A stretch of DNA of 64,000 nt from assembly GCA_947495555.1 (NCBI GenBank), contig CANLZI010000001.1:224861-288860 (forward strand), written 5' to 3'. The position numbers and the translations under genes were made by a program. Origin of the DNA: an uncultured Erythrobacter sp. GTDB taxonomy: Bacteria > Pseudomonadota > Alphaproteobacteria > Sphingomonadales > Sphingomonadaceae. Shown here one piece after another: positions 25,767 to 33,548 of this stretch. The notes under the pieces were generated by a model that saw only the letters and a program-made list of their open reading frames with translations, did not search any database and was not told the DNA's origin. Each line of letters opens with the position of its first letter. Within the stretch, counting starts at the first letter, position 1.

Positions 25767-27437
25767 TTAAATTGCACTATTTGCGGCGCTAAGCACGGCT
25801 CTGACAGATGCCGTTGCGACGTCCTCGTCAATCCCGCAGCCCCAGAATTGCTTTCCACCGGATTGGCAGTGCAAATAAGCTGCCGCGCGCGCGTCGCGGC
25901 CAGATCCCAAAGCATGCTCGCTGTAATCGAGCACTTTGATCTCCAGACCAAATGTATCTTCGATTGTGCTGACTACCGACGAAATTAGGCCATTTCCGCG
26001 ACCGCTAACGCTCTGTTCCTGGCCCGCTACAGCGATTGTGCCGGCAAACAGCCGCGTCCCATCGGACCCACGGCTTTCTTCATAGCTGACCAATTGAAAG
26101 TGCTTATCCGGTGTTTGGACATGATAACTGGACTTAAACGCTTCCCAGATGTCGTCAGCATTCAATTCGCGGCCCAATTCATCGGCTAGGTTCTGAACCT
26201 GTTTTGAGAAGTCAGCCTGCATCTTCTTGGGTAGTTTGAGACCCTGATCCTGCTCCAGAACCCAGGCAAAGCCGCCTTTGCCGCTTTGCGAGTTAACTCG
26301 GATTACTGCCTCATAATCGCGGCCCAAATCGGCTGGATCGATGGGGAGATAGGGCACGCGCCATTGTTCGTCATTCTGCTGGCTGTTCGCCTCAAAGCCT
26401 TTCTTGATCGCATCTTGATGCGACCCGGAAAAGGCAGTGAACACCAGCTCACCACCATAGGGGTGGCGCTGATGCACGGGCAACTCGTTACAGTACTCCA
26501 CCGTTTCAATGACACGATCGATGTCAGAGAAATCCAGTTCAGGATCAATGCCCTGAGTGTATAAGTTAAGAGCAACTGTGACCAAGCAACAATTGCCAGT
26601 CCGCTCGCCATTGCCGAACAGGCAACCTTCAACCCGGTCTGCGCCTGCCATCAGGCCCAATTCGGCCGCGGCCACGCCCGTCCCGCGATCATTGTGCGTG
26701 TGCAGGCTGATGATGGCGCTGTCACGATTGGGCAAATTGCGACAGAAATATTCGATCTGGTCGGCGTAGATATTGGGTGTTGCAGCCTCTACTGTTGCGG
26801 GCAGATTGAGAATGATTGGTTTGTCTGGTGTTGGTTCGAGAACCTCCATCACGGTTTCGCAGACTGCGATGCTGAAATCCAATTCTGCAGTCGAGAATGT
26901 CTCGGGCGAATATTGGAAGTGCCAATCGGTGTCTGGTCGCTTGGCTGCTTCGTCTCGCATCACCATGGCGCCGTCTCGGGCGATCTGGCGCACTTCATCC
27001 TTGCTCATACGGAACACGATGTCGCGCCATGCCGGGCTGACAGCATTGTACAAATGAACAATGGCGCTTTTAGCGCCATCCAGGCTTTCAAAGCTGGTGC
27101 GGATCAGATCTTCGCGGCTTTGCGTGAGGACCTGCACCGTCACATCATCGGGAATATCACCCGAGCGAACCAGACCTTGGATGAAGTCAAATTCGGTCGC
27201 TCCCGCGCTGGGGAAACCGACTTCGATCTCTTTGACGCCAATTCGGACCAGTTCCTCAAAAAATCGCCGTTTTTTTACGGCATCCATCGGGTCAATGATC
27301 GATTGATTGCCATCGCGCAGATCGGTCGACAGCCACCGGGGCGGGGCAGTGATAGTCCGACTGGGCCATTGCCGATCGGGCAAGTCCACTTGCGGGAATG
27401 CGCTGTATTTTTGCGAAGGATTGGAAAGCATGGGCAT
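25767..27437 (-). CDS. leuA: 2-isopropylmalate synthase
   Basis: The 556-residue enzyme condenses acetyl-CoA with 2-oxoisovalerate, the first step of leucine synthesis, and is usually feedback-inhibited by leucine. The TIM barrel shows [33 protein letters not shown] (metal-binding HxH) and [14 protein letters not shown]; the C-terminal part is the leucine-binding regulatory domain. It is the longer LeuA form, as in actinobacteria and many alphaproteobacteria. A leucine-rich leader peptide and RNA stems lie upstream. It is separate from the ilvBHC run 2 kb away. Confidence 0.96.
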
Positions 27438-27455
27438 GGGGCAAGCTCTTAAACT

Positions 27456-27550
27456 GAGATTTCGTTGGGAAGTGCGGCTAAATGCGCGTTCTAAATCTCC
27501 CTTGGGCGCTTGCCGCGCCTTCAGAGCACGCGGCCGCCTACGCCCAAGGG
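27456..27550 (-). promoter_or_regulatory. Putative leucine attenuator ahead of leuA
   Basis: Minus-strand RNA can form a perfect 10-bp stem, CCCTTGGGCG (27541-27550) with CGCCCAAGGG (27499-27508), whose 5' arm is the end of the leader peptide. Nested inside is GCCGCG with CGCGGC. A competing hairpin GGCGC-GGCAA-GCGCC uses bases of the long stem. A third stem pairs GAGATTT (27493-27499) with AAATCTC (27456-27462), just before the leuA ribosome binding site. A ribosome paused at the Leu codons leaves the long stem free, and one at the stop codon covers its 5' arm. No T-run follows any stem, so control may be translational or Rho-dependent. Confidence 0.65.
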
Positions 27551-27588
27551 CGGGATAGTCGTAGCAGTAAGTTTGCCATGCGTTTCAT
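27538..27588 (-). CDS. Leucine leader peptide of leuA
   Basis: A 16-codon frame encodes [16 protein letters not shown] followed by TAG. Four of the sixteen codons are for leucine, three of them consecutive (TTA CTG CTA), and two are the infrequent CTA. It starts with ATG behind a weak CAGG and ends 100 bases ahead of leuA. The size, leucine run and overlap with an RNA stem fit a leader peptide for attenuation; leader peptides of this kind are known ahead of leu operons in proteobacteria. Confidence 0.75.
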
Positions 27589-27707
27589 GACCTGTGTCTT
27601 CGCCCAAAACCACAAAGATGGCAAGCGGATTGAAAAATTGTGTAACCTTACAGCGCCGCCTTGCGAAAGAGTGGGCATCCCGCACTTACGCGGTCAGGAG
27701 TAATTCA

Positions 27708-28244
27708 ATGCACAAGTCACTTATTTCAATCGCTCTGCTGGCAACGGTAGCTGCGTGTTCACCCGCAAACGAAAATGTCGCTCAAGATACTGCCGCTGTT
27801 GAAGCTGGCGCTCTTACCCAACTTGGCGGCACACCTGCCGGCCCAATCCACACGGCTTCAATTGGTGATACTCTGGCACTCAGCGGCTATGATGCGGTCA
27901 GCTATTTCAACGCCGATGGCGGCCCGGTTGAAGGAACAGAAGAGTTCACCGTAAACTATCAAGGCTATGACTATCGTTTCACGAGCGAAGAGAACGCGAA
28001 AACCTTCAGCGCAGACCCGGCCAAATATGCGCCGCAATACGGCGGCTATTGCGCATGGGCGATTGGCGCCAATGATGCGCTGGCACCAGGTGATCCCAAT
28101 GTTTACAAGATTGTAGATGGCAAGCTGTATCTGAACTTCAGCGAAGGCGTTGCCGAGCGTTGGAACAAGGACATTCCCGGATTTATCGAGAAGGGTGACG
28201 TAAATTACCCGACCCACTCGCCGGACGAACACTTCACCAGCTAA
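27708..28244 (+). CDS. YHS-domain lipoprotein
   Basis: The 178-residue protein begins with a lipoprotein signal (MHKSLISIALLATVAAC), so it should be lipid-anchored after cleavage at Cys17. It carries a YHS domain: GYDAVSYFNADG, YRFTSEENAKTFSADPAKYAPQYGGYCAWAI. YHS domains are short metal-associated modules; proteins of this kind with a signal peptide are widespread in sphingomonads, without a firm function. The ATG at 27708 has AGGAG eight bases before it. It is divergent from leuA and followed by a terminator. Confidence 0.88.
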   Translation: MHKSLISIALLATVAACSPANENVAQDTAAVEAGALTQLGGTPAGPIHTASIGDTLALSGYDAVSYFNADGGPVEGTEEFTVNYQGYDYRFTSEENAKTFSADPAKYAPQYGGYCAWAIGANDALAPGDPNVYKIVDGKLYLNFSEGVAERWNKDIPGFIEKGDVNYPTHSPDEHFTS

Positions 28245-30075: not shown

Positions 30076-31642
<1,567 letters not shown>

Positions 31643-31654
31643 GAGAATCTGTCC

Positions 31655-33418
31655 TTACACCAAAGCCTTGGCTTCATCATCCATGGTGCCTTCAACCTGG
31701 TCACCATAGAGCAACATTTCCGTATGCGCTGCGCCCGACGGGATCATCGGGAAGCAATTGGCATCCTTGGCCACCATACAATCGACGATCACCGGACCGT
31801 CATGCGCCAGCATCGCTTCGATGCCCGCGTCCAGATCGGCTCCATCTTCAATCCGGATGCCTTTCCACCCATAGGCCTCTGCCAGCGCAACAAAGTCAGG
31901 CAGGCTGTCAGAATAGGAATTTGAATAGCGGCTTTCATAGGTCAGTTCCTGCCATTGGCGGACCATGCCCATATACTCATTGTTCAGGACGAAGATCTTG
32001 ACCGGCAGACGGTATTGGCTGGCCGTGCCAAGCTCTTGAATATTCATCTGAATGGAGGCTTCGCCAGCAATATCGATAACCAGATCATCGGGATTACCCA
32101 ATTGCGCGCCGATGGCAGCGGGCAGACCATATCCCATTGTTCCCAGGCCGCCTGAAGTGAGCCATTTGTTGGGATCGAAGAAATGGAAATATTGGGCTGC
32201 CCACATCTGATGCTGGCCAACCTCTGTCGTGATGATCGGATTGCGATCCTTGGTCAGCGCAAACAGGCGTTCGATTGCCTTTTGCGGCATGATGGCGCTG
32301 GGGTCCTTGGCCGACTTTTCGGGGTAGGCCAGACATTCGCGGGCACGCCAGCCTGTGATGCGGGCTTTCCATTCGCCCAGATCTTGTGGTTTGCGATCAC
32401 CCCATGCCTCGATCAATTGCCCTAATACGGTCGCGCAATCGCCAACTATGCCCAGATCAACCGGCACATTCTTATTGATGCTGGCTCGGTCGATATCGAT
32501 GTGGATTTTCTTACTATCCGGAGAAAACGCATCGAGCCGACCAGTTACGCGATCATCAAAGCGCGCACCTATGCAAACCATCACATCGCATTTGTTCATC
32601 GCCATATTGGCTTCAAATGTGCCGTGCATACCCAGCATGCCCAGCCAATCGGGATGATCGGCAGGCAACGCGCCCAGACCCATCAATGTGCTGGTAACGG
32701 GCGCGCCGGTCAGGTCTTGCAACTGCCGGAGCAAACGACTTGCCTCGGGACCGGAGTTAATGATGCCGCCGCCCGTGTAGAGGATTGGCCGCTCGGCCTT
32801 AGCCATCAATTCAATGGCCTCGGCAATCTTGCTGTCCGTGCCTGCCATCTGCGGCTGATAGCGATGCGATGGCGGAGCAGCGTCGGCATTACTGCTGGAA
32901 GCGATGGCAATCTGCACGTCCTTGGGAATATCAACCACAACGGGGCCTGGGCGGCCACTGGTGGCGATGCGAAATGCCTCGTGCAAAATGGCTTCGAGCT
33001 CGTCCGGGTCTTTCACCAGATAATTATGCTTGGTGCAGTGGCGCGTGATGCCAACCGTATCGGCTTCTTGAAAGGCATCGGTGCCGATCAGTGCGGTTGG
33101 TACTTGACCTGTAATAACCACCATCGGGATCGAGTCCATAAAGGCATCGGCAATGCCGGTAACGGCGTTTGTTGCGCCTGGGCCAGAGGTGACCAAAACC
33201 ACTCCTGGCTTACCGGTGGACCGGGCATAGCCTTCGGCTGCATGCGCTGCGCCAGCTTCATGCCGCACAAGAATGTGCCGCAAGCGTTCATCTCCGAACA
33301 GCTCGTCATAGATGGGCAGCACCGCGCCGCCGGGATAGCCGAATACAAATTCGACCCCTTGCTCAACCAGGCACTCAACCAGGATAGCTGCGCCGCTGCG
33401 CTCCTGTGACACTTGCAT
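31655..33418 (-). CDS. ilvB: Acetolactate synthase large (catalytic) subunit
   Basis: The 587-residue ThDP- and FAD-dependent enzyme condenses two pyruvates, or pyruvate and 2-oxobutyrate. Glu54 in RHEAGAAH activates the cofactor. The ThDP/magnesium motif reads AGEASIQMN, with Glu453 where most relatives have Asp (GDG or GDA type). Other parts are regular, including VTSGPGATN and [12 protein letters not shown]. It is the first gene of the run; I searched its leader for a regulatory peptide and saw no convincing one. Confidence 0.97.
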
Positions 33419-33516
33419 TTCCTTCCATCAGCAGCACGGATGCTGGATTCGCGATGCGTGCTTCTAACAATAAATGAGGCCCGGGGCAGCAAAAGCGCAC
33501 CGAGCCGTTGAAGCCT

Positions 33517-33545
33517 CCGCTATGCGTTCGTTTATAACGTGTCAA
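33517..33545 (-). promoter_or_regulatory. Candidate promoter of ilvB
   Basis: TTGACA (33540-33545) is followed after 17 bases by TAGCGG (33517-33522) on the minus strand. The -35 box is perfect but the -10 is weak. It begins just after the miaA stop, leaving an untranslated leader of about 90 bases that contains an imperfect AGCACG/CGTGCT hairpin. Confidence 0.4.
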
Positions 33546-33548
33546 CCG

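Follow-up and report, generated by a model that had tools for sequence, protein, structure and literature searches.

In the window, that is, the whole stretch of 64,000 nucleotides that was analysed, the gene leuA is preceded by a short frame rich in Leu codons and by a hairpin that is not followed by a U-run. This raises the question of how such a leader could control the gene behind it. The gene occupies positions 25767–27437 on the minus strand and encodes a TIGR00970-type 2-isopropylmalate synthase. An earlier note on this DNA had claimed a 16-codon ATG frame with four Leu codons, three of them consecutive, and this frame is present at 27588–27538 of the minus strand. It reads ATG AAA CGC ATG GCA AAC TTA CTG CTA CGA CTA TCC CGC CCT TGG GCG TAG, with the Leu codons TTA CTG CTA as codons 7–9 and CTA as codon 11. 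The gap between the leader frame and the ATG of leuA (27437) is 100 nt long. The features of the locus are as follows.

25767–27437, minus strand: leuA, match to a TIGR00970-type family
27434–27456, minus strand: 3′ half of the base stem, formed by the ribosome-binding region and ATG (27437–27435) of leuA; predicted fold and co-evolution
27498–27573, minus strand: matched by R1 and R2, two covariance models that were both built with the window among their sequences
27499–27508, minus strand: 3′ arm of the conserved hairpin (CGCCCAAGGG), with no U-run after it; fold and covariation
27512–27534, minus strand: predicted inner stem-loop of the hairpin, 27534–27528 pairing with 27518–27512
27541–27550, minus strand: 5′ arm of the conserved hairpin (CCCUUGGGCG), within the R-P-W-A codons; fold and covariation
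27556–27570, minus strand: Leu codons TTA CTG CTA, then CGA and CTA; CGA kept in 179 of 179 sequences
27565–27581, minus strand: leader codons 3–8, which make up the 5′ half of the base stem; predicted pairing with the leuA start region and co-evolution
27588–27538, minus strand: leader peptide and its stop codon TAG; codon 4, at 27579, is another in-frame ATG
27589–27630, minus strand: candidate promoter near the leader ATG, consisting of a GCTTGC box and a weak match to GGC(A/G)A; position-specific conservation

A leucine leader and a covarying hairpin ahead of leuA

A scan of the minus strand around the leader with a promoter consensus gave no match. No ribosome-binding site above background level precedes the leader frame, and a GCTTGC box and a GGCAA-like box lie near the leader ATG; the leader transcript is therefore probably leaderless or nearly leaderless. 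The ribosome-binding site of leuA itself is weak in sphingomonads, with an anti-SD energy of −2.49 compared with a background of −2.16. The divergent neighbour at 27594–28244 encodes a (seleno)protein of a family with a YHS domain; should the ATG at 27709 be its start codon, the leader promoter and its own would share about 120 bp. In the 130 nt before ilvB (33419–33548; ilvBNC occupies 30076–33418), no short frame with an abundance of codons for Ile, Val, or Leu was seen, even though leaders of ilv genes are known from Alphaproteobacteria.

The Rfam 15 covariance models of riboswitch, T-box, and leader families gave no match at the leader of the window, and an Rfam scan of ten of the 12 plasmid loci gave no leader match and a single sub-threshold match elsewhere. 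Searches of Pfam and NCBIfam with three leader peptides of at least 20 residues returned no match; the 16-residue peptide of the window is too short for such a search.

The best 80 of 588 leuA-like stretches were taken from named genomes of Erythrobacter, Pontixanthobacter, Novosphingobium, Croceibacterium, and their allies. The sequence CGACT[TA], with [CT]GCCC three bases further on, is present in all 81 regions composed of these loci and the window. A scan for the motif surrounded by at least three Leu codons was applied to 120 further genomes of the genus and family and detected the leader in 115 of them. A conserved Leu-rich frame before leuA is borne out by the pooled Sphingomonadales regions, in which a looser form of the core motif is found upstream of leuA in 200 of 201 cases; the pooled sets overlap and comprise 182 distinct sequences after the removal of duplicates. 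In the single region without the looser motif, L044, leader and leuA are separated by a run of N. A piece of the leader region lies on both flanks of this run, which is probably a scaffolding artefact. The common end of the leader peptide is R-L-(T/I/M)-R-P-W-A, with the W position occupied by tryptophan in 126 and by a stop codon in 43 of 179 sequences. Some Sphingomonadaceae genera contain only distant matches to the LeuA of the window (best E-values of about 1e-14 to 1e-41), and may have another LeuA type or no LeuA in its place.

The perfect 10-bp stem that the earlier note had placed with its 5′ arm in the last leader codons is formed by 27550–27541 and 27508–27499. One U-G pair is added to the ten perfect base pairs of the helix, and the 5′ arm begins with the third base of CGC and extends to the end of GCG. 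As a single sequence, the window has a fold of ordinary stability (z of −1.06; 31 of 200 shuffled sequences were at least as stable), and the question therefore had to be decided by the relatives of the window. The arms of the hairpin match in at least eight of ten positions in 179 of the 182 distinct sequences, as opposed to 301 of 3640 shuffled controls; the three sequences with poorer arms were left out of later counts, which are therefore based on 179 sequences. Among 50 sequences picked from these for diversity, 97.4% of the cells are paired, and 36 cells with two-sided changes are distributed over seven of the ten pairs, a value reached by none of 500 shuffles. The stem thus covaries in the relatives of the window. 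In a mixed set of 38 sequences, 20 of which are from other orders, two-sided changes affect six of the ten pairs and 43 cells.

Distribution of the element in Alphaproteobacteria

The leader frame is real and conserved in many Alphaproteobacteria. The covariance model R1, derived from the sphingomonad core, has matches in 55 of 387 alphaproteobacterial genomes, and all of the best 30 of these 55 matches are located directly upstream of a LeuA-like gene. The LeuA of these 30 loci belongs to the family of the window in six cases, has a sequence identity of 56–57% in two, and of 25–29% in 22. Leaders from outside the sphingomonads mostly end with ...LRL(T/S/I/M)RP and a stop codon, encoded over CGACUUA..CGCCCCUGA. 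Exceptions are L239 and L242, which have no CGA codon, and L226–L228, L237, L238, L230, and L240, in which the RP end varies.

The covariance model R2 was built from 38 sequences of sphingomonads and other orders. It has 47 matches in 144 alphaproteobacterial genomes, 45 of which share the strand of leuA and precede the gene by 47–429 nt. The gene is of the TIGR00973 type in 41 cases and of the TIGR00970 type in four, so that the element precedes two unlike LeuA enzymes. Twelve of the 47 genomes supplied sequences for the model; among the other 35, 33 matches adjoin leuA. The two matches away from leuA rank among the four weakest (E-values of 0.013 and 0.041). The element is present in 41 of the 74 genomes that have a TIGR00973 gene above the cut-off. 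A phylum draw of 249 genomes, for which the share from outside the class is not given, produced 49 matches, all of them in Alphaproteobacteria.

Several loci were noticed alongside these searches. In four plasmid loci from Rhizobium, Ochrobactrum, and Shinella (L206–L209), the CGACUUA core is located upstream of leuA in a frame that is poor in Leu codons, and two of the four have R2 scores of 15.4 and 18.6 bits. A megaplasmid of Cupriavidus metallidurans (L210) carries a Leu-rich short frame ending with SSLLLSLPIGCRA before a betaproteobacterial leuA, which may be the leader of a further relative of the element. In one genome (G012, C1 371133–372801), leuA is covered by two overlapping matches in different frames (residues 1–390 and 386–555), likely owing to a frameshift or an assembly error.

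Pairing of the leader with the leuA start and its interpretation

The predicted fold of the window pairs positions 27581–27565, which include Leu codons 7 and 8, with positions 27434–27456, which include the ATG of leuA. The energy of the duplex of the leader Leu-codon region with its own leuA start region was compared with that of duplexes with swapped start regions in 179 sequences. The mean energy is −14.09 kcal/mol for the own partners, −11.69 kcal/mol for swapped partners (z of −12.1), and −13.05 kcal/mol for partners swapped between the most similar sequences; the own duplex is better than the mean of the similar-sequence swaps in only 112 of the 179 cases. The control pairs had z values of +1.0 (leader with hairpin loop), −2.1 (upstream stretch with leuA start), and −3.9 (loop with leuA start). 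Since none of the three gains over the most similar sequences, these values reflect kinship or composition.

Sliding windows, with leader positions counted relative to the CGA codon, locate the gain. In comparison with similar sequences, t exceeds 2 only for leader positions −36 to +5 and leuA positions −34 to +3, and the largest gain, 1.04 kcal/mol with a t of 5.1, is at positions −22 to −9 of leuA, the ribosome-binding region; these t values are guides only, because the sequences are related. Two windows further on (+18 to +41) gain relative to random partners (t of 3.3 and 4.9), but not relative to similar sequences. When whole leaders are folded, the expected number of pairs with the leuA start is 11.8 for the own leader and 8.1 for leaders swapped between species. 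The pairing is therefore partly generic, because swapped leaders still reach 8.1 expected pairs.

Examples of the pairing in the base stem can be seen by eye: CUUCUUCUUCUUC faces GAAGAGAAG-type sites, and CGUAACG faces CGUUACG in some species and CGCAACGG faces CCGUUGCG in others. Two hand-picked groups with visible pairing, of 12 and eight of the 182 sequences, contain one pair with two-sided changes each; the changes do not exceed those of shuffles in either group, and in the group of 12 the change occurs in three sequences. Both groups serve as illustrations.

A second set was obtained by dropping four near-duplicates from 24 loci of orders other than Sphingomonadales, which left 20. The leuA starts in this set were chosen by their ribosome-binding score, so that single starts may be wrong, and that of L227 lies downstream of another ATG. 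The mean duplex energy is −17.38 for own and −14.74 for swapped partners (p of 0.0002), with a z of 0.0 for the upstream control. The own partner is the best of 20 in three loci and within the top three in eight.

Accessibility of the leuA start was modelled with a ribosome stalled on the leader. In the 179 sphingomonads, it increases from 0.44 to 0.51 when the Leu codons are masked. Masking of the stretch upstream of the Leu codons results in 0.52; hence the effect is weak and unspecific. The same model yields 0.46 versus 0.39 in the 20 other loci. Static accessibility modelling was equivocal and was set aside as support in sphingomonads.

The conserved leader, the covarying stem, terminators near chance level, and the co-evolving pairing support the earlier proposal of a leucine attenuator without a U-run terminator. 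The frame and the stem are kept in close relatives, contrary to the outcome that the earlier note had named as refuting the proposal. Control of translation is favoured because the Leu-codon region of the leader co-evolves with the ribosome-binding region of leuA, which strengthens the suggestion, already made in the earlier note, that the switch may act on leuA translation. Judged from sequence comparisons, the element is probably a translational attenuator through which leuA responds to leucine. With leucyl-tRNA in ample supply, the ribosome would complete the leader and depart, after which the base stem would re-form around the hairpin, cover the leuA start, and prevent its translation. When leucyl-tRNA is scarce, the ribosome would stall on the leader Leu codons and itself occupy the covering strand, leaving the leuA start free for initiation. 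The hairpin probably keeps the two strands of the base stem near each other. The response of leuA to leucine is what we infer from this model, which is supported by the anatomy of the element and by co-evolution.

The search for terminators bears on two other explanations. No U-run follows the 3′ arm in the window, as the earlier note had stated, and runs of at least four T downstream of the arm occur in four of 179 sphingomonad and two of 24 other loci. Terminator-like sites in the interval from leader to leuA number five in 179 (2.7 in shuffled sequences) and one in 24 (0.2 in shuffled sequences); in the sphingomonads, an intrinsic terminator between the leader and leuA is thus near chance. 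The scarcity of intrinsic terminators is compatible with Rho-dependent termination, the alternative named in the earlier note, in which full translation of the leader would open the stretch before leuA to Rho, unless a ribosome stalled or the leuA start was exposed. The co-evolving pairing is aimed at the ribosome-binding region of leuA, however, which Rho alone does not require, and it is improbable that Rho is the main agent. Rho may act jointly with translational attenuation, as untranslated leuA mRNA could by itself give rise to polarity.

It is also possible, with a still smaller probability, that the leader end R-L-x-R-P is a leucine-sensing arrest peptide. The same end recurs in other orders, even in the Leu-poor leaders of L241, L244, and L245. 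The residues R, L, R, and P are constant in the 179 sphingomonads; however, this constancy is no evidence by itself, because the search motif largely imposed these residues. By contrast, the third bases that the motif left free are nearly fixed, with CGA in 179 and CTT in 167 of 179 sequences, which points to a constraint on the RNA or the codons. Among the longer named loci, 2.3% of the Arg codons in LeuA genes are CGA, and 8.6% of the Leu codons are CTT. Moreover, the codons of the second R and of P also form the arm of the hairpin, and the residue between them and the first pair varies (T, I, M, S, A). In L230 and L234, UCCUUCGACU pairs with the ribosome-binding site of leuA, and this pairing may be an old reason for the core. 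The idea that CGACUU has been kept by pairing with an ancestral AGUCGAAGGA ribosome-binding site fits these two loci; it does not account for the core in most sphingomonads, in which such pairing was not seen.

Classical transcription attenuation, in which a ribosome stalled at the Leu codons would cause an antiterminator to form instead of an intrinsic terminator, is very unlikely. The Leu-codon leader with a hairpin overlapping its end resembles the textbook cases, and a few loci have the T-runs mentioned above; against it stand the near-chance number of terminator-like sites and the lack of a match to an Rfam family. The least probable explanation is a protein that binds the near-palindromic arms as a DNA operator or an RNA site, the frame being incidental. 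A protein was proposed for the actinobacterial LEU element in the cited part of Seliverstov et al. (PMC1262725). Against this explanation, a G-C to A-U exchange at column pair 30–98 (AU in 18 of 50 sequences) preserves the pairing of the arms and breaks the local palindrome, as expected of RNA pairing rather than of a DNA operator, and the Leu-codon frame is kept, with Leu at position −3 in 176 of 179 leaders.

Relationship to known leaders and significance

Among the matches listed in a search of the open-access literature, none reports an alphaproteobacterial leuA leader. The enterobacterial leu operon leader (Rfam Leu leader) is a Leu-codon leader ahead of leu genes. The alphaproteobacterial element shares this arrangement but has neither a U-run terminator nor an Rfam match. 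Within Alphaproteobacteria, the Caulobacter ilv leader is described, in the excerpt cited, as an attenuator of transcription that has a Rho-independent terminator ahead of the ilv genes (PMC4117421), and an alphaproteobacterial ilvB leader peptide is mentioned in a passage of another paper (PMC1273637). The Caulobacter leader and the element are branched-chain amino-acid leaders from the same bacterial class; by contrast, the element is located before leuA and has no terminator (comparison based on the same excerpt of PMC4117421).

The closest likeness is to the LEU element of Actinobacteria, which, according to the passages of Seliverstov et al. (2005, PMC1262725) used here, is located before leuA and contains a leucine leader frame, a base stem between the Leu codons and the Shine–Dalgarno box, and a pseudoknot or hairpin in its interior. 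In the same passages, the authors express doubts about classical attenuation, prefer a protein that binds the element, and cite leader mutations in Streptomyces coelicolor that did not fit classical attenuation (PMC1262725). The alphaproteobacterial element resembles the LEU element, as described there, in the leucine leader frame, in the base stem of Leu codons and leuA ribosome-binding site, which is indicated by co-evolution, in the lack of an intrinsic terminator, and in an inner hairpin enclosed by that base stem, which corresponds to the alternative fold of the LEU element. The two differ, as far as those passages describe the LEU element, in that the one analysed here is found in Alphaproteobacteria, precedes two unlike LeuA types, has a near-invariant CGACUUA core, and has a 10-bp hairpin that begins in the last codons of the leader. 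The expectation that the mechanism would be unlike that of a textbook attenuator thus holds in that it differs from the textbook case; however, the cited passages indicate that its parts had already been described in 2005 for actinobacterial leuA (PMC1262725). In Streptomyces lividans, leuL1, which encodes the peptide MRFGLLLLSCRGEGL, is located upstream of leuA, is leaderless, and has no typical Rho-independent terminator, according to the excerpt cited (PMC8079986). The alphaproteobacterial leader is similar to leuL1 in its position before leuA, its probably leaderless transcript, and the lack of a typical terminator, and differs in the end of the peptide, which is SCRGEGL in leuL1 (PMC8079986, same excerpt) and RLxRPWA here. 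The leader of the alphaproteobacterial locus L242, read by eye as LLLLLSCP and a stop codon, looks intermediate between the two ends.

The same base stem is formed, by duplex prediction, in plasmid-borne leuA loci of Actinobacteria (L212 and L214) and Sinorhizobium (L216). When R2 was run with its filters off on seven plasmid-borne leuA loci, the best match was at the leader in five, with low scores (E-values of 0.18–3.9): 10.6 bits in L214 and 8.0 bits in L212 from Actinobacteria, 8.4 bits in L216 from Sinorhizobium, and 6.5 and 5.0 bits in L207 and L206 from Rhizobium. The best matches in the actinobacterial loci L213 and L215 lie away from the leader, and R2 with default filters had no match at an actinobacterial leader up to an E-value of 5. 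The 13-base word CTTCTTAGCTGCC is common to the alphaproteobacterial L242 and the actinobacterial L212 and L214. These observations weakly favour a common descent with the actinobacterial LEU element. Low-scoring matches and a 13-base word are no more than hints of homology, and the element is therefore named a LEU-like translational attenuator.

What is new here is that the Leu-codon region pairs with the leuA ribosome-binding region in Alphaproteobacteria; the LEU element is the known representative of this kind. A tentative and rather doubtful extension would be that a single ancient leucine-sensing RNA exists in Alphaproteobacteria and Actinobacteria before two unlike LeuA enzymes, that its Leu codons are both the sensor and the strand that hides the ribosome-binding site, and that its CGACUUA core has a further role beyond pairing, such as programmed slow decoding at CGA-CUU.

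If the proposed control of leuA is correct, the first committed step of leucine synthesis in many Alphaproteobacteria would be under the control of an RNA for which there is no Rfam family, and this control would be exerted on translation and not on termination. The covariance models enable annotation of the element where Rfam release 15 gave no match. The 2005 prediction for Actinobacteria, which the passages cited above leave open after the odd behaviour of codon mutants, would become a directly testable design. Because the codons that sense leucine would double as the covering strand, codon mutations alter the RNA stem as well, and this overlap could explain the confusing results obtained with mutants.
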